The notes under the pieces are model-generated. The model was not told the origin of the DNA. It searched no databases and saw only the letters and a list, made by a program, of their open reading frames with translations. Of a DNA stretch of 64,000 nucleotides, positions 17,803 through 61,607 are shown piece by piece; within the stretch, counting starts at the first letter, position 1; every line of letters starts with the position of its first letter. Made by a program: the position numbers and the translations under genes. This stretch comes from a virus: the IMG/VR virus record IMGVR_UViG_3300024302_000005, positions 1 through 64,000 of that record; one strand, 5' to 3'.

Positions 17803-18066
17803 ATGCCCATTACAGTAGTTAACAAATATGCTTCGCTGTATGACGTTTACATCGGTAGAGGCACTAAATGGGGGAATCCATTTGTTATTGGCAAAGATGG
17901 TTCCCGTGAAGAAGTTATCCAAAAATTTGAAGAACATCTTCAAAATAGCCCGGAATTGCTCGCTGCATTGCCTGAGCTAAAGGACAAGACTTTAGGCTGC
18001 TTCTGCAAACCTAAAGCCTGCCATGGTGATATTCTTAAGGAATACGCGGAGGCAGGCCATGATTGA
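17803..18066 (+). CDS. DUF4326-family protein
   Basis: 87 residues. It carries the features of DUF4326: YIGRGTKWGNPFVIG near the N-terminus and LGCFCKPKACHGDIL near the C-terminus. The domain often occurs with nucleotide or ADP-ribose enzymes. AAAGGAGATCAAAA precedes the ATG. It overlaps the SLOG-like gene by 8 bases, suggesting a joint function. Biochemical function unproven. Confidence 0.8.
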   Translation: MPITVVNKYASLYDVYIGRGTKWGNPFVIGKDGSREEVIQKFEEHLQNSPELLAALPELKDKTLGCFCKPKACHGDILKEYAEAGHD

Positions 18067-18487
18067 AACCCCGTTCGGACTAATCATAGCAGGCGGTAGA
18101 GACTTCACCGACTACGCTATGATGGAGAAAGCTTTTATGAAATTCGTGGGTGACACGGATGATCAAAGCATAACTATCATATCCGGAACAGCTGGTGGAG
18201 CCGATCGACTCGGTGAACGCATAGCTAAGGAATATGGCCTTCCCTTGCTCCAAATGCCTGCAAATTGGAATAAACACGGCAAATCTGCTGGATATATCCG
18301 TAATGCGGAGATGGCTGTGCAAGGAACCCACCTATTAGCTATGTGGGACGGGCAGAGCCGAGGCACTAAGCACATGATCGAGACTGCCATGAAGCAAGCT
18401 TTGACAATCGAGGTCGTAATGTACACCGCTCCTCCTCGCAAGAAATATAGCGAGAGGAACATCATTCAGCCAATAACGGAGACATAA
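18059..18487 (+). CDS. SLOG-superfamily (YspA/DUF2493-like) nucleotide-binding protein
   Basis: 142 residues from ATG 18059. A Rossmann-like start (FGLIIAGGRDFTDY), ISGTAGGADRLGERIAKEYGLP and ANWNKHGKSAGYIRNAEMA are hallmark segments of DUF2493/YspA-like SLOG proteins, which bind nucleotide-derived ligands or ADP-ribose. With NADAR (14072) and DUF4326 (17803) it makes a set of likely NAD/ADP-ribose-linked early genes. Confidence 0.8.
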   Translation: MIETPFGLIIAGGRDFTDYAMMEKAFMKFVGDTDDQSITIISGTAGGADRLGERIAKEYGLPLLQMPANWNKHGKSAGYIRNAEMAVQGTHLLAMWDGQSRGTKHMIETAMKQALTIEVVMYTAPPRKKYSERNIIQPITET

Positions 18488-36885: not shown

Positions 36886-36960
36886 GAGGAGGTGGCGGAA
36901 TGGTTACGCGCCAGATTGCAATTCTGGTTTATGCGAGTTCAAATCTCGCCCTCCTCTCCA
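36886..36960 (+). tRNA. tRNA-Cys (GCA)
   Basis: Complete cloverleaf: acceptor GAGGAGG / CCTCCTC, D-arm GCG...CGC, anticodon arm CCAGA-TTGCAAT-TCTGG with anticodon GCA, variable TTTAT, T-arm GCGAG-TTCAAAT-CTCGC, discriminator T and encoded CCA. The U73 discriminator is the cysteine identity base. Starts 5 bases after the degenerate tRNA. Confidence 0.93.
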
Positions 36961-40391: not shown

Positions 40392-41012
40392 ATGAAGATC
40401 GAAATTAACATCGATATCGAAGCTATTGTTCGTGAGGAGATCCGCAACTTTGTTCGTGAGAACCTCGTAATCAACAATGTTGTTGGTGCTCGAAATGCTG
40501 CCTCAGCCAGTGCAGCTACAGTAGGTACCTCTGATGAAGTATCCGTCACAGTTACACCTGAAGTACAGGCACCATCTGCTACCAAGTCCAAAGGACCTTC
40601 TGGTGGCGGTGAGTGGGAGTATGCTGCTAAGATCGGCAAACGTCGTTCCAAGGCAGACATTGCCCTGCACGATAAGGAAGTAGCTCTTGATCGGCTGCTG
40701 ACTCCGGAAGAAAAAGGGATCGAAGCAGCCCATGTGGAAATCAATGAGCAGACTGAAGTTGATGCCAAGGCAGCTGAGAAAGAGCGTGTACGAATTGACG
40801 CTATGGCTCAAGAGGGCCTGGATGCAGCTACAGCTGAAGCAGAGGCAGAAGCGGCAGCAGCAGCTGCTGAAGGACCTGCAGATGATGATAGCGCAGCTGA
40901 GGGCGATGCAGAGGCATCAGTCGAAGTTTCAGACGAGACGGAGACTGTAATCCCGGAGGGCGAGCAAATCCCAAAGTCAGAGCCGTTAGATACCCAATCT
41001 CTGTTTGACTAA
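40392..41012 (+). CDS. Ala/Glu-rich hypothetical protein (206 aa)
   Basis: 206 residues. A short N-terminal amphipathic segment (KIEINIDIEAIVREEIRNFV), a basic middle (GEWEYAAKIGKRRSKADIAL) and a long acidic Ala-rich tail (AEAEAAAAAAEGPADDDS). Low complexity and disordered. Good AAGGAGAGTAAG site. Likely a coiled/disordered linker protein in the replication or late region. Function unknown. Confidence 0.55.
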   Translation: MKIEINIDIEAIVREEIRNFVRENLVINNVVGARNAASASAATVGTSDEVSVTVTPEVQAPSATKSKGPSGGGEWEYAAKIGKRRSKADIALHDKEVALDRLLTPEEKGIEAAHVEINEQTEVDAKAAEKERVRIDAMAQEGLDAATAEAEAEAAAAAAEGPADDDSAAEGDAEASVEVSDETETVIPEGEQIPKSEPLDTQSLFD

Positions 41013-41182
41013 TGTGGAAAAACATTAAGTATTTCCTCTACACCCTGATTACTCTCGCCGTAGGTATCCCAGTGTTACTGGGCCTATGGTGGAGCATTCA
41101 GGTTGTTGTAGTCATCATCATCGGTGGACTAGTGTTTGTTGTTTACAAAATTTTAGATACTGAGCAAATTAAAAAGTCTTAG
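41012..41182 (+). CDS. small membrane protein at convergent overlap
   Basis: 56 residues with two transmembrane helices (about residues 7-27 and 29-47). The ATG overlaps the upstream stop (TAATG). Its end overlaps the end of the virion polymerase gene by 14 bases on the opposite strand, so there is no terminator between the converging transcripts. Confidence 0.6.
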   Translation: MWKNIKYFLYTLITLAVGIPVLLGLWWSIQVVVVIIIGGLVFVVYKILDTEQIKKS

Positions 41183-44100
41183 TAAACCAATCCCAGACAT
41201 CTTCGACGTTAGATGGGCCAGCTATTGTAGAGGCTGAATCTAGCAGGTCACCTTGTCCCAACAATGTTGGCATGAGGTTGCCTGTTAGAGGTCCGCTAGC
41301 GTTAGCTAAGGTCTCTACATCCAGGCCATACTGCATGCCAGCTGCAACACCAATACCAGTTGGCGATCGCTGCAGCATGTTACGCACTGATCTAATATTA
41401 CGAAGCTTATAGGTCAGGAATGGTGAGAAGCCCATGGAGTTTAGTACCTCCAGGATCGGGTGCATATTCTCATCAAACAGTACGAACTGATCGATAGCAT
41501 CATGCAGTGCGTCCTCAAAGGACTGCCCTTTCACATCCACTGCATGGCTAATCATTACATACCTACCCAAGAAATCAGTGATTTGCACGATTTTCTTGTG
41601 GGTACGGTAGACCTCACTATCTCTGTGCAAGACGATATTCTTCGCAATAGACGTCAGCTGACTAGGTATTTTGTCAGTATATTGTGTAACCTTATCCTGC
41701 TGCATGACACTGTTCATCCGGTTTAAATACCCCTTGGAAGATGACGTATTTACGTCCTCCACCACTAGGGAGTTAAGACCGAATGCGCTGAGCAGGTGAA
41801 TAGGGTTATTATTCACTTCAGCTGTTACAGCATCATACTCAGATTGCACTTTAGGCTTCTCGAGTACCGAGGCTACTTGCAGCTTTTGATGCAGATCTCT
41901 CTGCTTCTCGGTATCTGCCTCATATCTAATATACGCTTGATACCCTTCCCGCATCTTCTTAGCAGTGTATGCTGGGGAAATTCCGCGGATGGTTAGAGCC
42001 AGCAGGTTACTGACAAAGTTGTTAATCACCACCATCAATGTGGCCATTACAACACGCTCCATACCGAAGGACATTACCTCTCGGATGCCAGCATATCCCC
42101 TCCGAATAAACGTCTTCATCCAACCTAAAGATTCATTCTGCAGGAACTCAAGGTTAGCCGGGTTCAGGGCACTATACCCAAATGTCTTATACACAATATT
42201 TTCACGCACCATGAACTTACCGTCCAGGGAGAATTTGTGCATGTACTCTCTGACCTCCCTAGGGAGCTTACGGTACTGCTCATGATACTTGGACTTAGGA
42301 TCCAGGATATCCACAAACATCTTCTCATTGCCTGGATACACCTTCACCCACTCTTCGCCCAATACGTCTATAGTGGCTTTGTCTGCATCAATAGTGTTCT
42401 TCTTATTGATGTAGGAAGACCTCATGTGAGCAAACACATTCTGAAATTCCATATCAGGTTGGAAGATAGCTTCTACGCTATCTGCATTCATGATTACCCG
42501 GTAATCAACGATGTTATTCTTGCCATCCCGGATAGGGCTGAGACGTTGCTCTTCGTCTTCAATACCCATCTTCTCCAGATTTGATTCCCTCTTGTGGATC
42601 TTGGCAATGTGGGCCCGGATCGCAGATATATCTGGTGTCTTATCGGCTTTCTGGAACTTCTCATTTTTAGCTAAAATATCAGACAATAAGGTACCGCTGT
42701 GATGCAGACCAGTTGTCGACAGGATACCCGATACGTGGCGGTTCTCAGGCATCGATCTAGACACATACATCACGTTATGGGCCTGAGGTACTCCAGGGAT
42801 GTTACCCATCTTGTAAACGTGTGGGTAGCCCTTCCTGGCCATGGCTTTACGTTCCTCTGGAGTATCTACTCCAGTGATCATGTCGGTCAGGTCATCAATA
42901 CGATCTACAGTGAAACCCTTCTGGGTCTGGATACCGTTACCGTCAAATAGATTATCTAAAGACATAGCTACGAATGCCCTGTGCCTATTCAGCATAAACT
43001 CAAAGGCGTTGGTATCCGGATCAGCTTCGAGCTCTCTGGCCATCATATCTTTGACCACTGCATTATCTTCGCTCTTCTGACTAAGCAATGCAGACAGTGT
43101 AGCAATGGCATCCATTCTGCGGATGGTATTTGCGTTTAAGGCATCACCAGTAAGATACGTGGCCGCTATTGTGGATACGTTAAAATGCCCTTGTGGACGT
43201 TTACGCTTCTTGGTAGCCAAGAAATACCCCAACTCCATGGTGTATTTGAATGCCATAGATGTAGATTTAAGATTAGATGCTTTAGCTAATTTCTTGATCT
43301 CTTGCTTAATTAGAGCAGGATTGCCGATCAGCTTAACGATTTGCTGTGGTGTCATGCCTACGTCGTCAGCCAGTAGGCTCTGCAGATCAGTCTTCAATAC
43401 CACGCGGGTAATAGCTTCACGAGCTTGTTTGCTGATCTCTTCCGAGTTAACAGATTTCCATGCAGCATTCATGGTGCGCACGGAATCTCGCTCCACTTGT
43501 TGGAATAGCTTGTTAATATTCACCTTGGCAAACAGCAACCGCTTAATAAGCTTGAGCGTAAGAGCTCCTTTGCCTACTTCATCAGCCAATGCTTTAGTGA
43601 GACCGGTGATCTGACTGTACCCAGCAGTCACCATGGCGTCCCTAGCTGCACCTTCACCGAGAGCAGCGACACCAATAGCAGCAGCTGATCGGGAAACCTT
43701 ACCCAGTGCGTTATTAGGAGAAGCCTTAATAGCTTTGTGCACTGCAGCAGAGATGAACTCTCTGATCATCTTATCAGAGCCACGTACCAGATCTCTTGTC
43801 TTGGTCTCTAGCTTACTGGCTTGGGAATCATGCCTAGTCTGGATATCAATGAGAGATACCAAAATAGCTAGCGATTCCTCATGCGCATTCTCTTTGTTCT
43901 TACGAAAGATTACTCGAGTAAACGAATCTACTATTAGATCAATCAGGTGGACAAACCGGCCAGCTAAGGTCGTACCGCGGTCAGGCAATACCGTTGTGAA
44001 GCTTTGAGTGATCCGGATCATCGCAGGATTAGTAGTGGCATACGCCAAGAATTCTTCAGGGAGATGAGCAGCATCTGGACCAAATACATAATTGTATTGA

Positions 44101-47100
44101 TCCTTAGCTAGCTTGATCTCACTCGGAGTAGCAGTACCTGGGATATGGCTGAGGAAGGCTTTAAATCCTCCCTGCTTATCGACAAGCTTCTTGGTCTGCT
44201 TACGCACCTCACGGATCTGGTCACCTATCAGAGGGTTATCCCGAATAGCCTGAACAGTCATGGCATGCAGCAGTTCATGCGCATACACCTCCTGAGGAGA
44301 GTATTCGTTACGATTACCAGGCAACTGCCTGCTCAGAGATACCGTCATACGCTTGTTAACGCTATCGTAGGCACCTTGAGTAACCCCATTGATCTGTTCC
44401 ACCGTCATACGGACAGCACCTATGGAGTCCAATCCTCGGCCCATTGTGTCGATAATACGCTGTAGTGTAGCAGAGTGAGAGTCCATCTCTTGCTGGGTAC
44501 CGTAATAATGGCGAGAGATGTTCTTAAAGCGAGAGAGCAGAGCAGTGACACTAGCCTTCGTAATATCCTTGGAGAACACCGTCTTCTCATCGCTTTTCTC
44601 TTGGTTACCCAGAGAATTATACGCCTCTACCACAGCCTTTATGTCAGCATCGATAGTAGCTTGGGTCTCTCCAAGATCTACCGTTACCTCGTACTTACGT
44701 AGCTCAGCTTCCATCTTGGCAATGTTGCCATCATAGGCTGCTCCAACTTTGGCACGATAACCTTCCAAAATAGTGGTGTTATTCGTGGTATCCCCAGTCA
44801 GCAGACTAATAATTATTTCTCTTACATTAATCCGATCTTCCGTAGGGAACATCTCTTTGAGGGTCTCGGTCATTCCGCCGATGTACGGGTTATTTATGCT
44901 GTCTGCCAAAGCTATATTCACAAAATCACGAGCTGTTTCAGCAGTGTACTGAGCTAATATATTAGCTACTTCGTGAGGAGAATTGTTTCTGAACATCCCA
45001 GTAATGTAGTTACGCACGGAATCTGCAAGCCTAGCTACTGCAGGGTGGATCAGGAACATGGCCATCTTGTGAGCAGTACCAGCTGCCTGGATCTCTGCTA
45101 CAGCAGAGTCCATGGACTTACCAGCTTCAGGGTTAGTCTCGGACATATTAGGAATATACATCTGACTGGGCTCTAGACCCTCTGTAGATTCGATTTCTCT
45201 TAGCTCATCCTTCTTCTGAGTGGCTTCATTAGCATGTGAGATAACTACCTGCCGCAGCTCTGCAACATCTTTTTTATCTGTTCCTTCTAAAAACCGGTTA
45301 ACGTGCGCAGTGTCACGGATCCAGTTTTCTACCTCTGTCATCAAGGCAGTCCCGTTATCCGCATCCAACTGCTCAGTTGCAATAAGGACCTTCTCCATCT
45401 GATCTTTCATGATCAGAGACAAGTTCACATCAGGAGAGAGACCTAACCGCTTAAACTCTGCATTATATATTTCAGCAAATTCTGCTAATAGCTCAGGACG
45501 ACCAAATGCTGCATCGTACAGTGGCAGAAGGTGAGGTACTTTATCTAATGACAGAGCCAGCAAGGCAGCATCCGTATTGATAATACCTCGGATCAGCGCG
45601 CTAACTCCAGGTGCACTAAACGTCTGTTGCCGGGCAGTAGCCGTGACATCTCGGGTACCTCCGTCAACGTGATCTTGCACACGAACACTTACGGTATGAG
45701 CGTTGCTATCAGACTTATCCGATACCCGTTTACTCATATCAATAAATGAGTCTACGCCTGCGTCAGACAATGGGCCCTTATATTGTGGCAGCCACTTCTT
45801 CAGCCCATCCTGAACTAGAGCAACCGTCTCAGATTCAGTAAGGCTAGATCGTTTTTCATCAGCTAGTTTTTTATCCCTAGCTGCAATGAAATGTGCCATG
45901 AATACGGCATGCATGATCTCACCGGCTTGAACCACAGCCATCCGGTAATCCTTGGTATCTCCAAGGAGAGCATCCAATCCTCGAGCTAATCTAGGCTCAA
46001 TGATTTGCTTGATTACATTCTGGAAGATCTCTTCGTTAAACTCATGCCCCTTATGCATGTTGTTCTTGATCTTGTTGCCTACATTGTTGCCCATACCCAG
46101 GACATCCAACTGGCGTTCAAACTCTTCAATCTGCTTAGCACCCTCTACTTTGTCAGCAATATAGAGCCTACGCAGTACACCAATCTCTTGGTATAGATGA
46201 GAGATAATAGTTTTGGCCACCCCAGTAGCTACGGCAGGATTGCCGGCACCATACTGAGACATGACGAAAGGATACTTAGCTAGATCTCGTGCATCCTGAT
46301 CAGCTAGGTCAGGGAACAGGTAAGCAAGAGCCTGTGACCGTGCTACGTACGTCTCAGACAGCTTATCCAACCAATCCTGATCTTTGCCCTTCTCTTCTTC
46401 ATGGTACGTAAGGGCTACGTCCATTCCGGAATAGTGCTGAATTAGTGCACCCAGATCCATATAGGTATCGACAGGGATCTTGTCCCCATCATCCCTATCC
46501 TTATTAAGGGCGTGGATACCCCCCTCAAGGTGGGTGGTTTCCTCAGGTGTTTTACCAATATACACCGCAGTCTGGTTAAGGTGCTTCTCCAGAGTTTCCC
46601 GATCATTAAATGTAGGGAACTGGAATATGTTGATAGCAAACCCGTTAGCTACACCATCAATCTCCGCAGGGATATCAGACTCGAAGTTCATCTTGGGAGC
46701 TTCTGGGGCTACGGGAATAGCTTCACCGGTAGCCTTGGCGGTTTCTACTGCAACAGCATGCTTATCCATCGCCGTCATATGCGCCTTCCAGGCAGCATGG
46801 TAAGGAGCGTATATGGATAGGGCATGCAGGCCACCCAGGAGAGAGATATCAGCTCCTGAATATGGGCTATTTTCTTTGGTGTACAGTTTCAGAACTACAG
46901 CATTAAATTTCTCCATGTCCACTTTAGACATGTTGGAGTCAGCTGCCCTAAGAAGAGCTATGGCTTCCTGGATATCAGCATCTTCCATGTACTCATTGAA
47001 GGTGCTTACGATATTCACCGGTACCCGCTTATCTACTTTGTAGCCTAGGGCGTACATCGCAGCGAACTGGAACAGGTGCAGGTTCTCTTTGGTAAATGTG

Positions 47101-50100
47101 GTCGTCCCCTGTGGAGCAACGGCCCACCGCGTAAAGTGACTGTTCTGTGGGTTTACACCCAGACCAACCTGCATAATACGATGCTGAGACTGCAGGGCGT
47201 ATTTGAAGAAGAAGTTCTTCAGTTTGCCTGCCGTGCTAAATTTAAGAACACTATCCAGTGCATCTGTCTTACTGCCATTAGAGGCATTGGCCGAAGTAAC
47301 ATACGCCTTGGTGTCTGTTTTCTCATCTACGGGAACAACCCCCATCAGGAGTTCTACGGTACCCCGGAAATCTTCAGACATTGCAGCTATTAACGGCAAC
47401 GTAGAGGTTTCACCCCAGACTACATTCTGCAGTTTCTCTAGCACTTCACGCATCTTCTTTGGAACATCACCAAAGGATCTGCGGATGCTGCTAGCCGTAA
47501 ACTTTGCAGGAGCCTGCAAAGGAGCTGAATTAGAGTCGTTCTCTGCACCATCAGTCAGCACACTAATTGCTGCATTATTTAGTTCAGTGCTTTTCTCGAG
47601 CTCCTCTACGGAACCCTGCTCAACAGCGTGAGTAATATGTTTGTATTGCTGTCCGTGAGTAAAGTTCCTGCCATCACCTTCTTCGGATTCAGCAACTTCT
47701 TTAGCTTGTTGGGGCGTATACCCAAAATCCCATTTGCCGACGTTAACATTAATGAATGCTACGGTACTGCCAGGAACCTGTGCTTCGTTATTTATGATCT
47801 CAAAGGCCATGGATCCCAGGGCAGTACCTAAAGAATCCACGTAAGCAGCAGTGTATTTACTGCTAGCTGAAATACCCAGGGATGCCAGGATGACATTAGC
47901 TACAGACTGCACAGCTTGTTTGTGATCTAGGCCGACCCCTTCGAGGGCATTATAGTCAGTTGCAGATAGTGCCCTACGCCGATCGCCGTACAGGAACTCC
48001 CCTTTTTCTTGGTCTGAAGATAGCGGATTATCATTAGTATTTTGAGCAATCCAGTTCTGAGCACCCATCATCAAGGCAAACACCACCTGAGGGGGCAGCA
48101 CGGCTTCCCCTGTGAGCACTGTCTTACCGTCTTCGACTTTGGTAGAGAACTGCTCAAGGAGCCTCAGAGGGGTCTTCAGGGCAGGGGCAAAGCCATTACC
48201 TGCTATGTAATCGTCAGAAGTAACCAGATTAGCGTAGGCAGCAGCGTAAGCAGTATACCGGTTAGCGTACAGCTCAGCGCCTTCATCACTTAGCCCGATA
48301 GCCCGCAAGGCATCCATCAGTGTCTGAGGACTGTTGAAAGCCTCTGACGGGATGTTAAACAGCCCTACCCGCTTCTTGGTAATTTTTACCAGTTCAGCGA
48401 AGGTTTTATTCTTGAGGGTAATACCTGATTTGGTAGAACCCATGATCTGCTGATTAACGAATTCGGATACGAAGCTTACCGTAGCATCCAATACAGGCAA
48501 GGTTTCGGTCAGGATGAGTTTCTTAAACTCACCTGCCTTCTTGCCTACCTTAGTACCCGCCTTTTTAATGGGGGTGCTGAAAGTCTCGTTAGCTTGCCCG
48601 GTCTCTACCAGCAGCATACCACTGGCTTCGAACACCTGACCTAACAAGGTATTGTCTGTTTTAGCTAGACCTAACAATTTAGAGACACTGGCAACCAACT
48701 GAGACCAGATAGAGCCCTTGGGCTTAGCTGCATTAGGTAGATCGATTGCCTTCATATCCATCAGCAGACGCTGAAGATGCTTGTTGGTCAGGCCGTACGT
48801 CATTAACTCGTCAGCATGCTTAATTGTAGTGAGCCTATTAAGCATGCTTTTATCATAGTCAGAAACATTATTAGCAGGATCCGCAACATACTCTTTGATG
48901 TGCGCAGCAATGGCTTCTAGTTGAGCTACAGCATCTCGTTGAGTTTGACTGTTAGGGGATTTGAATGCACTAACGGCTGCCACATGCAGTAGTTCATGCA
49001 GAGTAAGCTCTTCATTTAAGGCACCGGGACTAAGCGTAACTAGCTTAGCAACTACTTCTCCGGTTCCCTCTATAAGATCGTAGTCAACATACCCGTCAAA
49101 TTCTTCATCTTCTCGCTGTACTCGCACACCTGTGTATTGAACCTTTACAGCACCTACTTTACCAACCAAGGCTTTAGCGAGCTCTACATAGGCGGGGTTA
49201 GTAGCTGTATCAATAAGCTGCTGAAGCAAGACATTCGCTGTTGTGCCCTTCTTGATTAGGGCAATTACTTTGTCCGTTAAACTAGCGGAGTCATAGTCCT
49301 TCTGGCGTTGGGTTAGCTCGGTAGTGCTGGCAGCAGTAACCGTGCCTTCAGGAGCACTTTCCACCTTCTCTGTGGTGTCTGCACCGACATTGGTATTCTG
49401 TGAGCTAAAGTTAATGGAGTCCGCGGACACTTCAGTAGAGCCGGCATTCCTATTAGCAGAATGCATAACCAACTTATCCGTAGGACGGCTGGTAGCCACA
49501 TAGAGTGCCTGATAGCTATTCTTGGGAGAACCATTGGTCCACCCGCCAATGCTATTCAGGCCATCCTCCATAACATACACATTACGGTACGTAGAGCCTT
49601 GGGCCTTCCAGGCAGTGATCGCGTATGCAGGATGCATCTCGATATTAGCTATGCGAGATACAGCGACATTCTGCTCTTTGAACTTGGTGTACTGCTCTGC
49701 ATTTAGACGTTTTTTAGCCTTAGCGTATTCAGCTGAAATAGCCTCTTGCAACGTCTTTCCATCAGGGAAAGTATCCGTATCAGTTACAGCAGGAATTCGT
49801 GTTTTTATTTCCTCGCCGTTAATAAGGTCCCTCATCAGGACCTCTTGATACGGAATAGATACCCCTTCAAATTCCAGGTGCTCCACCTCACCTACTTCAA
49901 GGATTTCATATTCACTACTATTCCAGATAGCTGCATCGCCCTCATCCTTGGGCTGCAACTTCACAGTGGAATAGGACATCAACACATCACCTACAGCATG
50001 GATGCCGTAGACACGGGTATCGCCAAACAACCGCTCAAAGATATCTCTGTTCAGATTAAAGACAGAGGCACCTTGGTTCCGATTATTCTCATTAAATGCC

Positions 50101-53100
50101 GTAACGATCCGAGTGCTTAATGGGTTCAGCAAGTAATCTTTAACGAAGGAGGTAGCTACGAATTCAGCGTCTCCGGTAAATATGACACCAGAGTTAGTAG
50201 ATTCTGAGAAATTAGTCTTCCGGTCACCTTTAGTGATCAGAACCGCTTTCTCTTTGATCTTCTCTTGCAGCGTCTTAACATCATCCAAGACAGCAGTGAA
50301 CAACCCAGTAAGCCCTAAGATAGGAGACTTACCAATTTGCCGCTGAGGCTTGAGTAACTTGACCCGGTTAGGGTATTCAGCTTCATCGAAGACAGGGCTA
50401 TTAGAGTTACGGCCGAACAGGGCACTAGCAGCAACCTTGAGAGCTTCTTTAGCTGAACGAATAGGTGCCAGCTGTGCAGAATCACCGAGGAAGAGTACTT
50501 TTATACCACGTTCCGCGGCTTTCTCTTTAATCAGCTGGGTCATGTTCTCACCCAGCATCGATGCTTCATCGACAACCAGTAATTTAATGCCCTCTAGCTT
50601 ATCACCATCCAGATCTTCAATATCCTCTAGACCCTCTTTCCTCTGTTTTTCATCAGTAGGAATGAGACCTAAAGCAGTCCAGATAGTACTGGCTTCCTCG
50701 CCGGTAGCCTTAGCTAGGATAGCTTTAGCTTTATTAGTGGTGGCTGTGTACAGAATTTGTTTCTTGGTCAAGCCAGAGTTTTCGATGATCTTGCTAACAA
50801 CAGTGGTTTTACCAGTGCCACCACGACCTTCAAGAACAAATTCCCTAATAGCTGATCCGGTATCTTTCAGCCAATCACCAATCTTGTCGATCGCTACCCG
50901 CTGTTCAGCGTTAGCGTATCCACCAGGAACCACCTCATATTTAGGCTCTTTGATGACTGTGTCATCTTCAGCTACCGTATCTTCTTCTGTCTCCGATACC
51001 TCCCCAGCAGGGACGTCCTCTGTTTCGGCTGCCTCAACATCTGGAGACTCTTCTGTGTTGTCCGGAGTTCCGTCCTGGTCCGCAGCATCATCTCCCGCAT
51101 CAATATTAGCCGGTGGAGCGTCTGGGGGAGGTGGGTTCTGCTCAGATACCCCTTCTTGTTCAGAAGATGTATCGCCAGCTGTGCTGCTAGCTGTATCAGG
51201 TGCAGCCTCAGCTGAGACGGTTTCCGTGCCTTCAAGATCGTTAATTGCATCTACGTCCTCTTCGGTAATATCTTCAGCTGTTCTGTTTTCTTCCTGTGCG
51301 TTTAATTCCTCTACGGCAGCAGCTAATGCCACTGCTTCTCGCGTAGCAGCAGCAGCAGTCTGAGCGAAGGTGGTGTCCTTGTGGCCCATGGCCAGCTTGA
51401 ACATAGCTTCACCGTAATCAGCTTCCTTGCTGACGGTACCAATGAACTCACCAGAGTTCTGGTGGATCTCGTATACATATTCTTTATTGTCTCGAGCTAT
51501 TTTGAATGACTCTGCGGTCATCTCAGTATCTTGGGTGTACTCCATTACCCGGTTACCGCCAGCAGCGACATTACCTCTTACGTATACCGGTTTCCCTGTC
51601 TTAGCTTCCTTCTTGGCAGCAGCCACAAAAGCATTATGCTTACGACGAATATTACCAGAGTGCACAGACATACGCTGAAGAGAAGTCTTCATGGCCAGTA
51701 CTGCAGGAGCATTACCTGGATCAGCTAGTAGTGTCTTTGCCGCGGTATTGATCTCGTCGAAATACGTGTTGAAACCTTTCCAACGGGTAGAGGTACCATC
51801 GATGCTCTCTTGGTGTACGTCTTCAGAGCTCTTACCGGCTTTAGTTAATACAGCCTTCTCTATTTCAGTTAGCTCTTTACCCAGTTTCTGGGTAATTTTC
51901 AGGTTCTCTACCTGGGCTTTATCTGCTTTGGTCTTGGCTTCTTTATCAGCTTTTTCAATAACAGCAGGAGCTACATCCTCCCCAGATATGACATTACGGA
52001 AAGTACCATCTTCTTTTTCCGCAGCAGCCGCTTCCTGTTCCTCAGCCTCTTTAGTAGCTACAGCAAGTGTAGCCAGGAATTCAGTTTTCTTAGCTTCTTT
52101 ACGGGCAATTTGTGCCTCTGTCAAAGCTCTCTTACCTACCCGTTGTAGAGTAGCTAAAGACTCTTTAAGAGTCTCCGGATTGTCAGTTATGGTGTCGAGG
52201 GCAGCATCTAATTCAGTATCGGTAATCTCCGATACGGCCAGTGCTTCCTCAGCCGCAGTCTTAGCAGCTTCAGCTGCTTTAGTCTCCGCTACCTCGGGGC
52301 GTACCCGTTCAGGCAAAGCGTCATATTCTGCTTGTACAGCTGCACGGTCCTCTGCGGTGAACTCTGGATTCTCAGCAGTTAGCTGCTCCAGTAGATCAGC
52401 ACGTTCAGCCAGAATAACCTCTTTATTGGGGTGATTAGGCGTATCTTTGAGGATTTGCTCGATCACATCAACACGTTCATTAATGGCATCACCCGCAGGT
52501 GTACCTTGAACAGTTTCTGATTGAGCTAATTGCTCACGCAATCCTGCAGCTCTGGATTTAGCAGTAGCTGCTTTAATAGGAGTTACGACAGCTGCTTTGG
52601 TTACTCCAATAGTTGCTCGTGCAGCCACCATGGCGCTTACACCACCAGGAGTACCTAGAGCTTCTGCCAAGGCATCATGAGCAATTGCACCGGTATCTGT
52701 GATCTTACCAGCTTGAGCTAGCTGTTCGGCCGTAGCAGTAATACCACCAGATACACCCTCACCAACCAGCGCTAGTGTTGGGCGCACTATGGTTAGATTA
52801 GCTATAGAAGCTGGTAGAGATTTATTTACAGCTCTAACTGTTTTCTGTACCCAATTAAGGCGAGCTATTGGGATGGCTTTAAGTGCAGCCATATCACCAA
52901 ATTTCTCAGCCACTGTGGCTACAGCAGACCATGCTTTAATTCGGCCAAGTTCTTTAGCTGAAGGCTCTCTGTTATTAGTAGTCCTGAATTCCTCTATAGC
53001 TTGGTTACCTTTACCAACAGCAAGTGACGTCAGAATAGCTGACTGCGCAATTGGACCACCAACAGTGAAGGCAATCATGTAGGGAACGCTGTCTATACCA

Positions 53101-53915
53101 GATTCCAAGAATGTACCTAGATCGTTAGTGACAGCGTTCCATGCTGCAGCCCAATTACCGTCGTTCTTAGCGATAACTTCAAATGCCTTTTGTGCTGTTA
53201 ATTGATCAGCACGGTTAACAGGGACATGTTTCTTTACACCCTTACCGAAGGCTTCAATGGCATCAAATTGAGCTTTATTTGTTGTAGCTTGTTTGTCGAG
53301 CTCAGCAATTCTTTTATGTTTGCTGGTAGCCCGGAAAGTATCATCAGACTCCGTACGTTCAACGTCTTGACCTAAAGTACGATAAGTCTCCAACTCCTGA
53401 GGAGTAACCACTTCATCCAGGCGGTTAAACCGCTTGGCACGTTGGTTGTGGAGATCTACTTCATTATTGAGAGTAGTGTTACCTGTGAAGGCAGAAGCGC
53501 CCTGAACTCCCAGGTCTACGGCCGTACTGGCTATGCCATGTACCCGGTTGCCTGCATTGCCAATAGGAGCAAAGTCCTCGATAGCCTGATTCTCTTGGGC
53601 ATCCCGGATGGCGTATGTTTTAGCTGTTAGTTCATCAAGTCCGCGGACTACGTTACCTGCAGTATTCTTGACCGAATAGGTACCGTCTTGGTGCTTGGTT
53701 ACATTACCTTGCCGATTTACAACAGGAGAAGCAGGTTCATCTGTGTAGATGTTTTGATTATTAATTCCTTGGATTACATCATTTACGGAATCATCAGCAG
53801 CTAGTTCCATATGCATACCCACTAAGCTCCCTTGCTTAGCAGACTGTATTGCTGATTTTGCAGAACGTACTCGTTGGGCTATCGATTGTTTAGCGGCAGA
53901 GACAGGACCAGCCAT
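41169..53915 (-). CDS. virion RNA polymerase with embedded SF1B helicase and two zincin-like modules
   Basis: 4248 residues. Order: helical N-terminus; acidic Pro/Thr-rich linker (about 890-995); SF1B helicase (about 1005-1490) with GRGGTGKTT (about 1030-1038), VVDEASM (about 1111), FLGDSAQLAPI, AWKAQGSTY and LYVATSRPTDKL (about 1473); first HELLH at 1640 with a later DELMTYGLTN; then the RNA polymerase core with motif A EIDGVANG (Asp 2420), motif B R2543-xxx-K2547-x7-Y2555-G and motif C PLYDAAFG (Asp 2801); second HELLH at 3213 with EEFLAYATTN; and a long C-terminus. Motif spacing fits N4 virion polymerase. It lies at the N4 gp50 position and should be packaged and injected with the DNA to transcribe early genes. 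Lacking His before the motif C Asp is an odd substitution. Confidence 0.9.
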   Translation of the reverse strand: MAGPVSAAKQSIAQRVRSAKSAIQSAKQGSLVGMHMELAADDSVNDVIQGINNQNIYTDEPASPVVNRQGNVTKHQDGTYSVKNTAGNVVRGLDELTAKTYAIRDAQENQAIEDFAPIGNAGNRVHGIASTAVDLGVQGASAFTGNTTLNNEVDLHNQRAKRFNRLDEVVTPQELETYRTLGQDVERTESDDTFRATSKHKRIAELDKQATTNKAQFDAIEAFGKGVKKHVPVNRADQLTAQKAFEVIAKNDGNWAAAWNAVTNDLGTFLESGIDSVPYMIAFTVGGPIAQSAILTSLAVGKGNQAIEEFRTTNNREPSAKELGRIKAWSAVATVAEKFGDMAALKAIPIARLNWVQKTVRAVNKSLPASIANLTIVRPTLALVGEGVSGGITATAEQLAQAGKITDTGAIAHDALAEALGTPGGVSAMVAARATIGVTKAAVVTPIKAATAKSRAAGLREQLAQSETVQGTPAGDAINERVDVIEQILKDTPNHPNKEVILAERADLLEQLTAENPEFTAEDRAAVQAEYDALPERVRPEVAETKAAEAAKTAAEEALAVSEITDTELDAALDTITDNPETLKESLATLQRVGKRALTEAQIARKEAKKTEFLATLAVATKEAEEQEAAAAEKEDGTFRNVISGEDVAPAVIEKADKEAKTKADKAQVENLKITQKLGKELTEIEKAVLTKAGKSSEDVHQESIDGTSTRWKGFNTYFDEINTAAKTLLADPGNAPAVLAMKTSLQRMSVHSGNIRRKHNAFVAAAKKEAKTGKPVYVRGNVAAGGNRVMEYTQDTEMTAESFKIARDNKEYVYEIHQNSGEFIGTVSKEADYGEAMFKLAMGHKDTTFAQTAAAATREAVALAAAVEELNAQEENRTAEDITEEDVDAINDLEGTETVSAEAAPDTASSTAGDTSSEQEGVSEQNPPPPDAPPANIDAGDDAADQDGTPDNTEESPDVEAAETEDVPAGEVSETEEDTVAEDDTVIKEPKYEVVPGGYANAEQRVAIDKIGDWLKDTGSAIREFVLEGRGGTGKTTVVSKIIENSGLTKKQILYTATTNKAKAILAKATGEEASTIWTALGLIPTDEKQRKEGLEDIEDLDGDKLEGIKLLVVDEASMLGENMTQLIKEKAAERGIKVLFLGDSAQLAPIRSAKEALKVAASALFGRNSNSPVFDEAEYPNRVKLLKPQRQIGKSPILGLTGLFTAVLDDVKTLQEKIKEKAVLITKGDRKTNFSESTNSGVIFTGDAEFVATSFVKDYLLNPLSTRIVTAFNENNRNQGASVFNLNRDIFERLFGDTRVYGIHAVGDVLMSYSTVKLQPKDEGDAAIWNSSEYEILEVGEVEHLEFEGVSIPYQEVLMRDLINGEEIKTRIPAVTDTDTFPDGKTLQEAISAEYAKAKKRLNAEQYTKFKEQNVAVSRIANIEMHPAYAITAWKAQGSTYRNVYVMEDGLNSIGGWTNGSPKNSYQALYVATSRPTDKLVMHSANRNAGSTEVSADSINFSSQNTNVGADTTEKVESAPEGTVTAASTTELTQRQKDYDSASLTDKVIALIKKGTTANVLLQQLIDTATNPAYVELAKALVGKVGAVKVQYTGVRVQREDEEFDGYVDYDLIEGTGEVVAKLVTLSPGALNEELTLHELLHVAAVSAFKSPNSQTQRDAVAQLEAIAAHIKEYVADPANNVSDYDKSMLNRLTTIKHADELMTYGLTNKHLQRLLMDMKAIDLPNAAKPKGSIWSQLVASVSKLLGLAKTDNTLLGQVFEASGMLLVETGQANETFSTPIKKAGTKVGKKAGEFKKLILTETLPVLDATVSFVSEFVNQQIMGSTKSGITLKNKTFAELVKITKKRVGLFNIPSEAFNSPQTLMDALRAIGLSDEGAELYANRYTAYAAAYANLVTSDDYIAGNGFAPALKTPLRLLEQFSTKVEDGKTVLTGEAVLPPQVVFALMMGAQNWIAQNTNDNPLSSDQEKGEFLYGDRRRALSATDYNALEGVGLDHKQAVQSVANVILASLGISASSKYTAAYVDSLGTALGSMAFEIINNEAQVPGSTVAFINVNVGKWDFGYTPQQAKEVAESEEGDGRNFTHGQQYKHITHAVEQGSVEELEKSTELNNAAISVLTDGAENDSNSAPLQAPAKFTASSIRRSFGDVPKKMREVLEKLQNVVWGETSTLPLIAAMSEDFRGTVELLMGVVPVDEKTDTKAYVTSANASNGSKTDALDSVLKFSTAGKLKNFFFKYALQSQHRIMQVGLGVNPQNSHFTRWAVAPQGTTTFTKENLHLFQFAAMYALGYKVDKRVPVNIVSTFNEYMEDADIQEAIALLRAADSNMSKVDMEKFNAVVLKLYTKENSPYSGADISLLGGLHALSIYAPYHAAWKAHMTAMDKHAVAVETAKATGEAIPVAPEAPKMNFESDIPAEIDGVANGFAINIFQFPTFNDRETLEKHLNQTAVYIGKTPEETTHLEGGIHALNKDRDDGDKIPVDTYMDLGALIQHYSGMDVALTYHEEEKGKDQDWLDKLSETYVARSQALAYLFPDLADQDARDLAKYPFVMSQYGAGNPAVATGVAKTIISHLYQEIGVLRRLYIADKVEGAKQIEEFERQLDVLGMGNNVGNKIKNNMHKGHEFNEEIFQNVIKQIIEPRLARGLDALLGDTKDYRMAVVQAGEIMHAVFMAHFIAARDKKLADEKRSSLTESETVALVQDGLKKWLPQYKGPLSDAGVDSFIDMSKRVSDKSDSNAHTVSVRVQDHVDGGTRDVTATARQQTFSAPGVSALIRGIINTDAALLALSLDKVPHLLPLYDAAFGRPELLAEFAEIYNAEFKRLGLSPDVNLSLIMKDQMEKVLIATEQLDADNGTALMTEVENWIRDTAHVNRFLEGTDKKDVAELRQVVISHANEATQKKDELREIESTEGLEPSQMYIPNMSETNPEAGKSMDSAVAEIQAAGTAHKMAMFLIHPAVARLADSVRNYITGMFRNNSPHEVANILAQYTAETARDFVNIALADSINNPYIGGMTETLKEMFPTEDRINVREIIISLLTGDTTNNTTILEGYRAKVGAAYDGNIAKMEAELRKYEVTVDLGETQATIDADIKAVVEAYNSLGNQEKSDEKTVFSKDITKASVTALLSRFKNISRHYYGTQQEMDSHSATLQRIIDTMGRGLDSIGAVRMTVEQINGVTQGAYDSVNKRMTVSLSRQLPGNRNEYSPQEVYAHELLHAMTVQAIRDNPLIGDQIREVRKQTKKLVDKQGGFKAFLSHIPGTATPSEIKLAKDQYNYVFGPDAAHLPEEFLAYATTNPAMIRITQSFTTVLPDRGTTLAGRFVHLIDLIVDSFTRVIFRKNKENAHEESLAILVSLIDIQTRHDSQASKLETKTRDLVRGSDKMIREFISAAVHKAIKASPNNALGKVSRSAAAIGVAALGEGAARDAMVTAGYSQITGLTKALADEVGKGALTLKLIKRLLFAKVNINKLFQQVERDSVRTMNAAWKSVNSEEISKQAREAITRVVLKTDLQSLLADDVGMTPQQIVKLIGNPALIKQEIKKLAKASNLKSTSMAFKYTMELGYFLATKKRKRPQGHFNVSTIAATYLTGDALNANTIRRMDAIATLSALLSQKSEDNAVVKDMMARELEADPDTNAFEFMLNRHRAFVAMSLDNLFDGNGIQTQKGFTVDRIDDLTDMITGVDTPEERKAMARKGYPHVYKMGNIPGVPQAHNVMYVSRSMPENRHVSGILSTTGLHHSGTLLSDILAKNEKFQKADKTPDISAIRAHIAKIHKRESNLEKMGIEDEEQRLSPIRDGKNNIVDYRVIMNADSVEAIFQPDMEFQNVFAHMRSSYINKKNTIDADKATIDVLGEEWVKVYPGNEKMFVDILDPKSKYHEQYRKLPREVREYMHKFSLDGKFMVRENIVYKTFGYSALNPANLEFLQNESLGWMKTFIRRGYAGIREVMSFGMERVVMATLMVVINNFVSNLLALTIRGISPAYTAKKMREGYQAYIRYEADTEKQRDLHQKLQVASVLEKPKVQSEYDAVTAEVNNNPIHLLSAFGLNSLVVEDVNTSSSKGYLNRMNSVMQQDKVTQYTDKIPSQLTSIAKNIVLHRDSEVYRTHKKIVQITDFLGRYVMISHAVDVKGQSFEDALHDAIDQFVLFDENMHPILEVLNSMGFSPFLTYKLRNIRSVRNMLQRSPTGIGVAAGMQYGLDVETLANASGPLTGNLMPTLLGQGDLLDSASTIAGPSNVEDVWDWFTKTF

Positions 53916-53936
53916 GGTTATAATATCCCATTGGTA

Positions 53937-55625
53937 TTAAGGGTTCAGTAGTTTTTGCAGTGCCGTGTTAGACAATACTTTATTTTGCATTGCCGCTGGA
54001 AGTTGGTCCATAAGAGCTTGTAATAGTACGTCTTTACTAAGACCGGAAACATCTCCCTTATGTAGACCACCAGAGTCCCCATACCCAGGAAGATACAAAT
54101 CATTTCGATCTATGGTATCGCTGTCTCCAATGGTGTTATTCAGGACCTTTACTACGGCTACACTAATTGCAGTGGAGGAGATACCCGCTTTGCTTAACAA
54201 ATTCTGTGCTTTAGCCATTACGTTTTTAATGACCCTACGTGTTTTAGCACCATCAACAGTGGCTTCACCTGTAGAGGTAAAGCGTTGATTCAATGAGTCT
54301 GCAAGCTCTCCGTAGGAGCCTGTACGTAGTTTGCTGGCAAAGCCCAGTTCGACTTTGGTAGCACCAAGGTTAGCTTCAACAGCTGCTTCATTTAGATCCT
54401 TTACCTGCTTATCTTTGGCGTCTACCTGGGCAAGGAAAGAGCTAACATTTGGATCAGATTTAATATGTTGTTTAGCTATCTGGGCAAGATGGCGTTCTGA
54501 TAGCCCCTTGTTCTCGGGTTTACCACGAAGACCAGATACAATCTTGGATTCTAACGTAGCACGTAAATTCTTAGGAGCAGCCAAGATAGCTGCAGACATT
54601 CTACCAGTAGTATAGGCAGCCAGTACACCTTGAGTTACTACACCTCCAAGGGCATTTCGTGCACTAGAAAATGTCTGGATCTGAGCCCCTCCCGGAACTG
54701 TCGCAAGTATTGCTGCACCCGTCTGGGAGCTAAGAGAATCTTTAGTAGCCCGAGCAATTCGGGCAGTCATATCTGCAGACAGCTCTCTGGTACTCTGCAT
54801 TTCTTCCAGTTTACCCAAGGCAGCATTACGCTCGGCCGTAGTCTTACCAGGATCCGCAAGGGTATCCAGGAGAGGCTGAGCCTTGGTGTCATTGGTAAAG
54901 ACTGTTTTTTGTTTAGCTAAATCACGAAGACTTTTTGCACGGGTTTCTTCCGTAAGGGTAGCGTCATCCCGAATACGTTTTTGCTCTTGGTTAAAAGCAA
55001 TACGGGCCCGAAAGTCTTTAGCAGCATTTATTTGAGATGTAATCTCATCACGTTCGTTCTTGTCTCTGGCAAATTCCAGAGAATCTTCCAGTTGCCGTAA
55101 CCGCTTGGGATCTGCTTTTTCGTTAAATTCAATTTCTTGTTTGGTCTTTTTACGAGCAAGTTCAGCAGTATTCCGCTGGGATTCTGCTGTTAACCGTTGG
55201 GATGCAGAGGTTAGCAGGTCATCTGCTTTACCAGCTTCATCACTTTCAAAGGATGCTTGATCACGCACTTCTTGACGATCTAACCGAAGGTTCTGGTCGA
55301 CAGCACGTTGTTCATCAGCTACCCGGAAATCCTGATTCTGTAGATCTGTGACAGCAGAGGTAACTGCACTATCATCCATGAAGGCTCGTGTAGCTTCATC
55401 AGCTTGCTGAACTGCATTCTTGCGGTCAGCATCTGTAGGCAAAGACTGCAAATAGGATACAAACTCTGCAGTATCCCGTTTGGTCTTCTCATCGCTGAAG
55501 TCCTGTACTTCATCACCAAGCCCACTAATAGCGTCTCCAAGACCTTTGCCCGCATCACTGAAGGCCCTGAGAGATGCACCATGATTAGGACCAGACACAT
55601 TTCTCCAGGTAATAGGCGTTGCCAT
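53937..55625 (-). CDS. internal virion/ejection protein (N4 gp51-like position)
   Basis: 562 residues from ATG 55625 (AGGAGAAGATTG precedes; the TTG at 55628 is less likely). It starts TPITWRNVSGPNHGASLRAFSDAGKGLGDAISG, a form common to phage internal virion proteins, then a long charged coiled coil (rich in Gln, Glu, Arg, Lys; about 70-260) and a Gly/Ala region (TGAAILATVPGG). Likely co-ejected with the virion polymerase. Confidence 0.65.
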   Translation of the reverse strand: MATPITWRNVSGPNHGASLRAFSDAGKGLGDAISGLGDEVQDFSDEKTKRDTAEFVSYLQSLPTDADRKNAVQQADEATRAFMDDSAVTSAVTDLQNQDFRVADEQRAVDQNLRLDRQEVRDQASFESDEAGKADDLLTSASQRLTAESQRNTAELARKKTKQEIEFNEKADPKRLRQLEDSLEFARDKNERDEITSQINAAKDFRARIAFNQEQKRIRDDATLTEETRAKSLRDLAKQKTVFTNDTKAQPLLDTLADPGKTTAERNAALGKLEEMQSTRELSADMTARIARATKDSLSSQTGAAILATVPGGAQIQTFSSARNALGGVVTQGVLAAYTTGRMSAAILAAPKNLRATLESKIVSGLRGKPENKGLSERHLAQIAKQHIKSDPNVSSFLAQVDAKDKQVKDLNEAAVEANLGATKVELGFASKLRTGSYGELADSLNQRFTSTGEATVDGAKTRRVIKNVMAKAQNLLSKAGISSTAISVAVVKVLNNTIGDSDTIDRNDLYLPGYGDSGGLHKGDVSGLSKDVLLQALMDQLPAAMQNKVLSNTALQKLLNP

Positions 55626-60329: not shown

Positions 60330-61607
60330 TTAGACAGCTACGAGAGCAGTCCAGATAATACCAAGACGTTCAGGGCGCAGAGCCATAAAGCCGTAGTACC
60401 ATTTGATCGAATAGAACCCGATCTCGCCGTAAGGATCATCGCGGTTAGCGATCTCTTTACCAGGCTTCTTGTGGTTGACCACAAACTTGACGGACTTACC
60501 GTCAGTCTGGAAGCCAATGGTAGTAAAGGCACCATCACCAACGACCAGCATTGGGTAGATGTCCGCACCGTTTTGACCGTTACCGGCTGTATCAGCAGCA
60601 GAAGCACCACCACCTTCGTCGTACTGCATCTCAGGAACAACCACGATACGGAACTGGTCAATTGAACCAATTTCGCCATTCATGATGTTGCCGGCATCAG
60701 CATACTTCTCAACAGAGACGAATGCAGGTGCACTATGCAGGTCAACCATTGCCCGCAGAGCTGGGATCAGCTCTGAACCAACGTACATGACACGGCCACC
60801 ATTAATGGTCTTCGTATCAATCATACGGCTACCGGCGATGATCTTCGTCTGCTTTGGAGTCTTGTTGTTGTCCAGAGCAATCGAGAGGTTCATCAGATCG
60901 GTATATGTAACAACTTCGTCAACGGTCAGCTTAGTCGTGCCGCCCATGTAATAAGCTGTACCGTTAGCTGTGGCATTGGTGATCAGATCTGCCTGAAGCT
61001 CGGCTTCAGTCAGTTCGTTGGCACCAACCAGGGCTTCCGTGGTGATATGGGACAGCAGCTCGGCGTCCGAATCAAAGTCCATGGATTCCTGAGTGTATTC
61101 CGTGAAGAAACCACGCTTATACAAGTCACCTTCGACTTGCAGACGGGTGAAACCAACACGGTTAACACGCCCACCGTTCTCAGTCAGAGCCGGGATCTTG
61201 GAAGTAATAGTACCGGTATCTTTGGAAGAGCCATACAAGAACTGACCATTCTCAGCGACTTCACCACCAACACCAGCGGCTGTTACTGCAGCGCCTTCGT
61301 TAGCTTCTGTGGAGCTTTGCAGCACACCAGAAGAGTTCCAGGCTGACCAAGTACCAGCAGTCAGAGCTGTACCAGCGGCATCAATGCCCTGGTCATTTAC
61401 GTTGCGATCGTCGAGCAAGGGGACATATACGTCCTGCTTGATCTTTTTACCCATATGCTTAGGCATGGCGCGAACGTCAGCCAAAGGCATAAAGTATTGC
61501 TGATCACGAACAGCAATGATGGCTTTTTTGTAGTAATAATCAGTACGGGCCTGTGCACCAATCTTGGACGGGGTTCCACCCGCAGGGTCGTTATAGAGCT
61601 GTACCAT
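60330..61607 (-). CDS. major capsid protein (N4 gp56-like)
   Basis: 425 residues. Starts [17 protein letters not shown], then [25 protein letters not shown] and a [20 protein letters not shown]-type segment. It has HK97-fold-like spine and P-domain patterns ([48 protein letters not shown]) and a C-terminal [11 protein letters not shown]. The length and position (between scaffold and gp55-like gene) match N4-type MCP. It assembles the icosahedral head. Confidence 0.85.

Follow-up and report, generated by a model that had tools for sequence, protein, structure and literature searches.

Introduction

How a phage RNA polymerase (RNAP) that cannot work on ordinary linear duplex starts transcription on DNA that has just entered the cell is understood for coliphage N4 alone, and there only in outline, with host gyrase and SSB opening the template; the virion RNA polymerase (vRNAP) of N4 is inactive on native linear DNA, and its promoters require both supercoiling by gyrase and EcoSSB (PMC4496689). 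The same question is raised by a locus in IMG/VR record IMGVR_UViG_3300024302_000005, an uncultivated virus sequence of 75,502 bases, of which we analysed positions 1 to 64,000 (hereafter the window). There, a single open reading frame (ORF) with an ATG start and without internal stop encodes a homologue of N4 gp50 that carries a helicase of superfamily SF1B. This helicase is a new part of a polyvalent N4-like vRNAP, and its incorporation into such polymerases on several separate occasions suggests that some phages bring their own opener.

Results

The embedded helicase

By sequence and predicted structure, residues ~986–1500 of the protein are an SF1B helicase with every motif retained, because the fold recovered by AlphaFold and Foldseek and the profile search against PDB sequences agree. 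The region matches AAA_30 (8e-20) and AAA_19 (3e-17) in Pfam, most of it is spanned by a Dda-like helicase PHROG (6e-60), and a helicase profile finds Dda over nearly its full length among PDB sequences (1.7e-41). An AlphaFold model computed from an alignment with 22 relatives reached a predicted local distance difference test score (pLDDT) of 80 and a predicted template modelling score (pTM) of 0.82. Foldseek ranked T4 Dda (3upu) first in the PDB, with an E value of 2.9e-25 and a TM score of 0.77 on the target, followed by Deep-Sea Helicase 9 (DSH9), RecD2, RecD and Pif1. Identity to Dda in the Foldseek alignment is 18 %; motifs I–VI and the overall fold are shared, whereas the window helicase is embedded in an N4-type polymerase that is presumably ejected. 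The motif columns G, GTGKT, DE-S, GD-Q, QGSTY and R are likewise retained in 23 divergent helicase copies. The first-pass annotation, made from the letters of the window, had proposed a complete SF1B helicase from motifs I, II, III, V and VI; all of these are intact, and the segment indeed models as a helicase of the Dda/RecD2/Pif1 fold. Its RNAP and HELLH motifs were also found exactly where it had placed them, and the motif set of the ORF far exceeds chance.

The window also encodes a stand-alone Dda-like helicase, and a recent duplication of that gene was considered as the source of the embedded copy. It is excluded by the helicase tree, where the stand-alone Dda groups with N4 gp37-type helicases, apart from the embedded domain.

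The suggestion that a helicase within an N4 vRNAP might be new has held up so far. It is absent from 12 of 12 reference Schitoviridae vRNAPs, and three helicase queries against 50,697 isolate-phage records returned, among the matches listed, none under a vRNAP; all of those listed fall under stand-alone helicases or unlabelled genes, and two unclear ones proved on checking to be stand-alone. No mention of a helicase within an N4-type vRNAP was found in the open-licence literature. Among the closest known systems are the polyvalent proteins of Iyer 2017 (PMC5512222), giant late-block multi-enzymes in which an N4-like RNAP is fused to ART, lysozyme, PBECR and zincin domains. A helicase is not among these listed fusion partners, the helicases described there being SWI2/SNF2 (SF2) and UvrD in contrast to the SF1B enzyme found here beside the RNAP, and the terms RecD, Dda, Pif1 and SF1 are absent from the main text of that paper. 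With several unrelated enzyme domains in one giant late-block protein, the window vRNAP fits the polyvalent style that the first reading had ascribed to it.

Polymerase and C-terminal domain

The polymerase itself is of N4 type, as had been proposed. PHROG_2206 (virion RNA polymerase) matches the ORF at 5.8e-176, and an RNAP profile built without N4 recovers the N4 mini-vRNAP (2po4) at 9e-36. The catalytic D, R, K, Y and D align with those of N4 at N4 spacing: the positions of D2420, R2543 and K2547 are invariant across an alignment of 106 distinct vRNAPs, position 2555 is occupied by Y or F throughout, and D2801 is kept in all except one gapped row. The C-terminal domain C2 is conserved as well, with an N4-free profile of the last ~1,000 residues (A2) matching N4 gp50 residues 2439–3448 at ~1e-128.

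In gene position and order, in the plan of N-terminal domain, linker, RNAP and C-terminal domain, in the catalytic residues and in the possession of an HExxH module, the protein corresponds to N4 gp50 (PDB 2po4, 9pnr). It differs in its length of 4,248 versus 3,500 amino acids, in the helicase and zincin inserted between the N-terminal linker and the RNAP, and in its two intact zincin sites flanking the RNAP. The N-terminal domain was assigned from blastp matches to the vRNAP N-termini of 1.026.O and JA-1 and from the first ORF of a sister phage (locus L137, 36 % identity), and the acidic linker is comparable to the ~100 amino acid linker of N4 (residues 907–1006, PMC12633501).

Zincin modules

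Both HELLH segments are zincin-type modules, as the first-pass annotation had it, each combining HExxH with a conserved downstream acidic residue at the sequence level. In zincin 1 only H, E, H and the downstream E are strictly invariant among 20 relatives at 15–30 % identity. For zincin 2, all 52 sequences keeping HExxH also have the downstream E3288, against 1 of the 51 that have lost the motif; the Fisher p of 7e-29 for this association is too strong, because the sequences are related and not independent. Co-conservation and co-loss support a predicted three-ligand metal site. The shared E-x-x-x-Y/A-x-x-TN block noticed earlier downstream of each HELLH is real, and is better read as a third-ligand motif, E-x6-T-N, beginning with E1703 and E3288.

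Zincin 1 gave matches to T7-like internal core proteins and to a DarB-like protein from Serratia phage Parlo, and a profile of it recovers structurally characterised ejection proteins (9sfn at 7e-25, 23sg, 8vb2). Its family occurs in ejection proteins of other podophages too, such as phiNV3 gp38; these and the Parlo protein lack an RNAP, whereas in the window zincin 1 stands between helicase and polymerase. N4's own C1 site is closer to the zincin 1 than to the zincin 2 type, the latter being found in Vibrio N4-likes. An AlphaFold model of zincin 1 was of moderate quality (pLDDT 67) and gave no significant match in Foldseek; the putative zincin 1 is assigned from sequence only. The zincins were rejected as the novelty of the locus, and the part of the earlier proposal that made them elements of a new architecture was not sustained: N4-like vRNAPs are stated to “always” carry zincin-type domains (PMC5512222), and the HExxH of N4 C1 was recognised in the 2025 N4 structure paper (PMC12633501).

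Locus and gene order

The coordinates of all features are collected in Table 1. The minus strand of the window carries the major head protein, tape measure, portal and terminase genes on the N4 plan, in the N4 order gp50-gp51-gp52-gp53-gp54-gp55-major head protein-tape measure-portal. The plus strand encodes an N4-type RNAP, a DNA polymerase, the Dda-like helicase, an exonuclease, a primase and a Sak4-like annealing protein.

Table 1. Features of the vRNAP gene and of selected other genes in the window (residue numbers refer to the vRNAP).
Feature	Coordinates	Strand	Remarks
Helicase-bearing N4-like vRNAP, gp50 homologue, single ORF	41169..53915	-	4,248 aa; zero cysteine
N-terminal domain, residues ~1–880, equivalent of N4 N-terminal (injection) domain	51276..53915	-	boundary approximate
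Acidic low-complexity linker, residues ~881–985	50961..51275	-	35 % D+E
SF1B helicase (Dda/RecD2/Pif1-like), residues ~986–1500	49416..50960	-	all motifs intact
Helicase motif I (Walker A) GRGGTGKTT, residues 1030–1038	50802..50828	-	
Helicase motif II VVDEASM, residues 1114–1120	50556..50576	-	
Helicase motif III FLGDSAQLAPI, residues 1142–1152	50460..50492	-	
Helicase motif V AWKAQGSTY, residues 1435–1443	49587..49613	-	
Helicase motif VI LYVATSRP, residues 1471–1478	49482..49505	-	
Zincin module 1 and linker, residues ~1501–1780	48576..49415	-	N4 C1/podophage ejection-protein type
HELLH of zincin 1, residues 1640–1644	48984..48998	-	invariant in alignment A6
E1703, predicted third metal ligand of zincin 1	48807..48809	-	invariant in alignment A6
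Single-subunit RNAP domain, residues ~1821–2980	44976..48455	-	boundaries approximate, from L137 and N4
RNAP motif A EIDGVANG with D2420	46641..46664	-	D2420 = N4 mini-vRNAP D559
RNAP motif B RDLAKYPFVMSQYG with R2543, K2547, Y2555	46248..46289	-	= N4 R666, K670, Y678
RNAP motif C PLYDA with D2801	45510..45524	-	D2801 = N4 D951
Zincin module 2, residues ~3000–3330	43926..44918	-	
HELLH of zincin 2, residues 3213–3217	44265..44279	-	
E3288, predicted third metal ligand of zincin 2	44052..44054	-	
C-terminal helical domain C2, residues ~3331–4248	41172..43925	-	homologue of N4 C-terminal domain
gp51-position gene, 563 aa	53937..55628	-	neighbour in N4 ejection-protein order; without cysteine
gp52-position gene, 157 aa	55641..56114	-	without cysteine
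Major head protein (gp56-like)	60330..61607	-	93 % identical to that of sister phage L137
Stand-alone Dda-like helicase, N4 gp37 type, 431 aa	29230..30525	+	

Relatives and separate gains of the helicase

Relatives were obtained from profile scans of uncultivated viruses, whose loci are labelled here by L-numbers; single-protein scans of viral contigs gave no match, alignment queries did. The helicase lies upstream of the RNAP in L050, as in the window protein, and downstream of it in L028/L101, L031/L102, L037/L107, L032/L168 (5,940 residues), L104 and L148. In L131, L144 and L147 RNAP, helicase and C-terminal domain are encoded by adjacent genes, which follow one another as the domains do in the fused proteins. 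In the sister phage L137 the helicase is encoded one gene ahead of the RNAP: residues 22–1517 of the window protein, including the helicase (45 % identity), correspond to the first of these two genes, and the remainder (45 %) to the second, which opens with a SLOG/YAcAr domain at the place of zincin 1. Fusion and gene adjacency together argue that helicase and polymerase form one working unit.

Trees were computed for the helicase (72 rows) and the RNAP (106 rows); both are quick trees with support from the Shimodaira–Hasegawa-like approximate likelihood-ratio test (SH-aLRT) only, and with some long branches. The vRNAP copies require three changes on the helicase tree, all forced by supported branches, and are placed with the window phage and L137, with the group of L028, L031, L032, L037 and L148, and with L050; the helicases of L131 and L144 join the L028 group in a larger supported set. 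On the RNAP tree the association with a helicase appears in five places, namely the window phage with L137, L028/L031/L032/L037/L104, L148, L131/L144/L147, and L050. These placements suggest that N4-like vRNAPs gained the helicase at least three separate times, the details of which transfer or loss could alter.

Several observations on individual relatives were made alongside. The vRNAP frame of L050 (1364–13069, 3,902 aa) has F replacing the Y of motif B, and ahead of its helicase shows a by-eye likeness to Rossmann-like and acetyltransferase domains that Pfam did not confirm. The SLOG-family YAcAr domain (PF10686), which forms the start of the RNAP protein in L137 (12129–13100), has a gene of its own in the window (18023–18487, plus strand). 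The head protein of L137 (3–881, against 60330–61607 in the window) is 93 % identical but the vRNAP pieces only 36–45 %, which points either to very fast evolution of the vRNAP or to its exchange. The same SF1B family is further found in giant proteins of loci where no N4-type RNAP was found, among them L138, L139, L140, L143, L149, L151, L154, L184, L186 and L192, with the helicase near the C-terminus, and L145, L162, L179 and L214; for L140 there is in addition a match to a virion structural protein profile. The SF1B helicase looks like a common cartridge of giant phage proteins.

Cysteines in single and split vRNAPs

The window vRNAP is free of cysteine, compared with 52 cysteines in 4,806 residues of the replication-side genes and 4 in 3,155 residues of neighbouring virion genes of the same phage. 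N4 gp50 lacks cysteine as well (0 in 3,500), as do 73 of 82 complete single-chain ORFs comprising RNAP and C-terminal domain. Where the vRNAP is split, in 11 phages (L131, L144/L219, L147/L218, L220, L221, L224, L099, L057/L225, L068/L227, L228 and L137), every one of the 32 junction-facing ends bears exactly one cysteine at most 12 residues from the end, and the remaining ~41,100 residues hold none; uniform placement would give this with a probability of 10^-63, a figure that ignores kinship. The rule was formed on L131, L144, L147 and L137. It correctly predicted, for the gene that lies upstream of the short vRNAP in each of L099, L057 and L068, a single cysteine at the C-terminus, and held in the freshly fetched L220, L221, L224 and L228 and in the visible half of L226, while the freshly fetched unsplit vRNAPs of L222, L232 and L238 contain no cysteine. 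L124 and L141, two apparent exceptions with two overlapping frames and no cysteine, are best read as frameshifted single chains.

A cause at the DNA level was considered in the coupling motif TGTAAATAATG, which accounts only for adjacent genes. It is insufficient because the split genes need not touch: the pairs of L225, L227 and L228 are 1.7–6.6 kb apart, with their cysteines in other sequence contexts. On the sequences at hand, the simplest reading suggests that a single disulfide links the chains at each joint and so restores one continuous string that can be ejected in order; a bridging metal or a different thiol linkage may serve instead. Disulfide joints would preserve the chain order during threading through the tail and would then come apart in the reducing cytoplasm. 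We consider it probable that these vRNAPs are modular enzyme strings with an exchangeable helicase cartridge, made either as a single cysteine-free polypeptide or as two to three disulfide-joined ones. Terms for cysteine or disulfide are absent from the main text of the N4 structure paper (PMC12633501), and no earlier report of cysteine-jointed split vRNAPs was found in the open-licence literature; we regard this split form as a more unusual discovery than the embedded helicase.

Discussion

For the role of the helicase we favour, at what we would call an even chance, an ATP-driven motor that works in cis on the phage DNA entering first and opens or pulls duplex for a polymerase in need of single-stranded DNA. 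The SF1B helicase and a zincin of ejection-protein type would have been built in where the N-terminal injection domain meets the polymerase. The vRNAP would be packaged, threaded out with gp51- and gp52-like ejection proteins and refolded in the cell, where the helicase would translocate by ATP hydrolysis, probably 5′–3′, on the first DNA entering. Linear duplex opened or pulled in this manner would offer the polymerase the single strand that it needs, either alongside host gyrase and SSB or in their stead. The helicase would be held on one string with the polymerase by the peptide bond here and probably by single disulfides in the split relatives. For N4 itself, the C-terminal domain inhibits the polymerase and was suggested to bind or unwind DNA (Bellis et al., PMC12633501).

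A number of points weigh against this role in template opening. Packaging of the protein in the virion we infer only from homology and synteny; a shared hairpin-promoter family was searched for in the likely early region (9.4–20.6 kb) and not found; and the hairpin contact W129 of N4 has no counterpart here, as in most N4-like vRNAPs. Most N4-like phages, moreover, manage without a built-in helicase, and since the same helicase family is present in giant proteins of loci without a detected N4-type RNAP, its function is not necessarily linked to transcription.

The helicase could instead serve above all in genome entry, as a motor that is tethered to the inner membrane together with the ejectosome and reels in DNA independently of promoter opening, a role that we hold to be possible, if doubtful. 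N4 has a short tail, its genome enters stepwise and driven by transcription, and its vRNAP is ejected and membrane-associated (PMC4496689), all of which would suit such a motor. SF1B enzymes such as Dda and RecD2 translocate along single strands, but they require a single-stranded track and are poor duplex pullers, and the sequence holds nothing that separates DNA reeling from template opening. Rather unlikely in our view is a counter-defence function in the polyvalent style, in which the helicase strips host proteins (RecBCD, restriction enzymes or SSB coats, for example) from entering DNA or remodels its ends, and the polymerase shares no more than the delivery. The giant proteins in loci without a detected N4-type RNAP, including that of L140 with its virion structural profile, speak for it, as does the combination of SWI2/SNF2 motors with methylases for anti-restriction in polyvalent proteins (PMC5512222); the separately placed fusions and the adjacency with RNAP in particular argue in the other direction, and no methylase or nuclease was found beside the helicase in the window protein.

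That the domain is a pre-loaded Dda serving replication after entry and not early transcription would agree with its nearest characterised fold relative, the replication and recombination helicase Dda. We think this improbable, the phage having a separate Dda-like helicase in its replication block, from which, on the helicase tree, the embedded copy did not arise by recent duplication. The record being a metagenomic virus sequence, mis-joined contigs or a chance P-loop also had to be weighed. An artefact of this kind was ruled out by the L137 counterpart, an independent contig in which the same helicase, at 45 % identity, likewise follows this N-terminal domain, and by the complete fold and motifs, and with one open frame running across 12.7 kb its probability is negligible.

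A motor opening the entering template in cis would extend to other phages the question so far outlined for N4. The vRNAPs compared here also offer a clue to how nearly 400 kDa of protein can get through a channel ~35 Å wide: the chain is free of cysteine, domains are added, moved or split off, and lone cysteines stand at the joints when it is split. If the disulfide reading is true, virions would contain ordered, redox-cleavable protein strings, with a possible use in delivering large proteins.

Three further observations concern the window as a whole. Between 9400 and 20600 it holds 65 perfect short GC-rich hairpins versus 11–24 in base-shuffled sequence, which share no family and may reflect composition. 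Its sole tRNA gene is a tRNA-Cys (36886–36960, plus strand), and the virion proteins of the phage are nearly cysteine-free. Matches to Sigma-70-like promoters are depleted across 40700–54200, with 3 found versus 19.1 ± 4.3 expected from shuffles.

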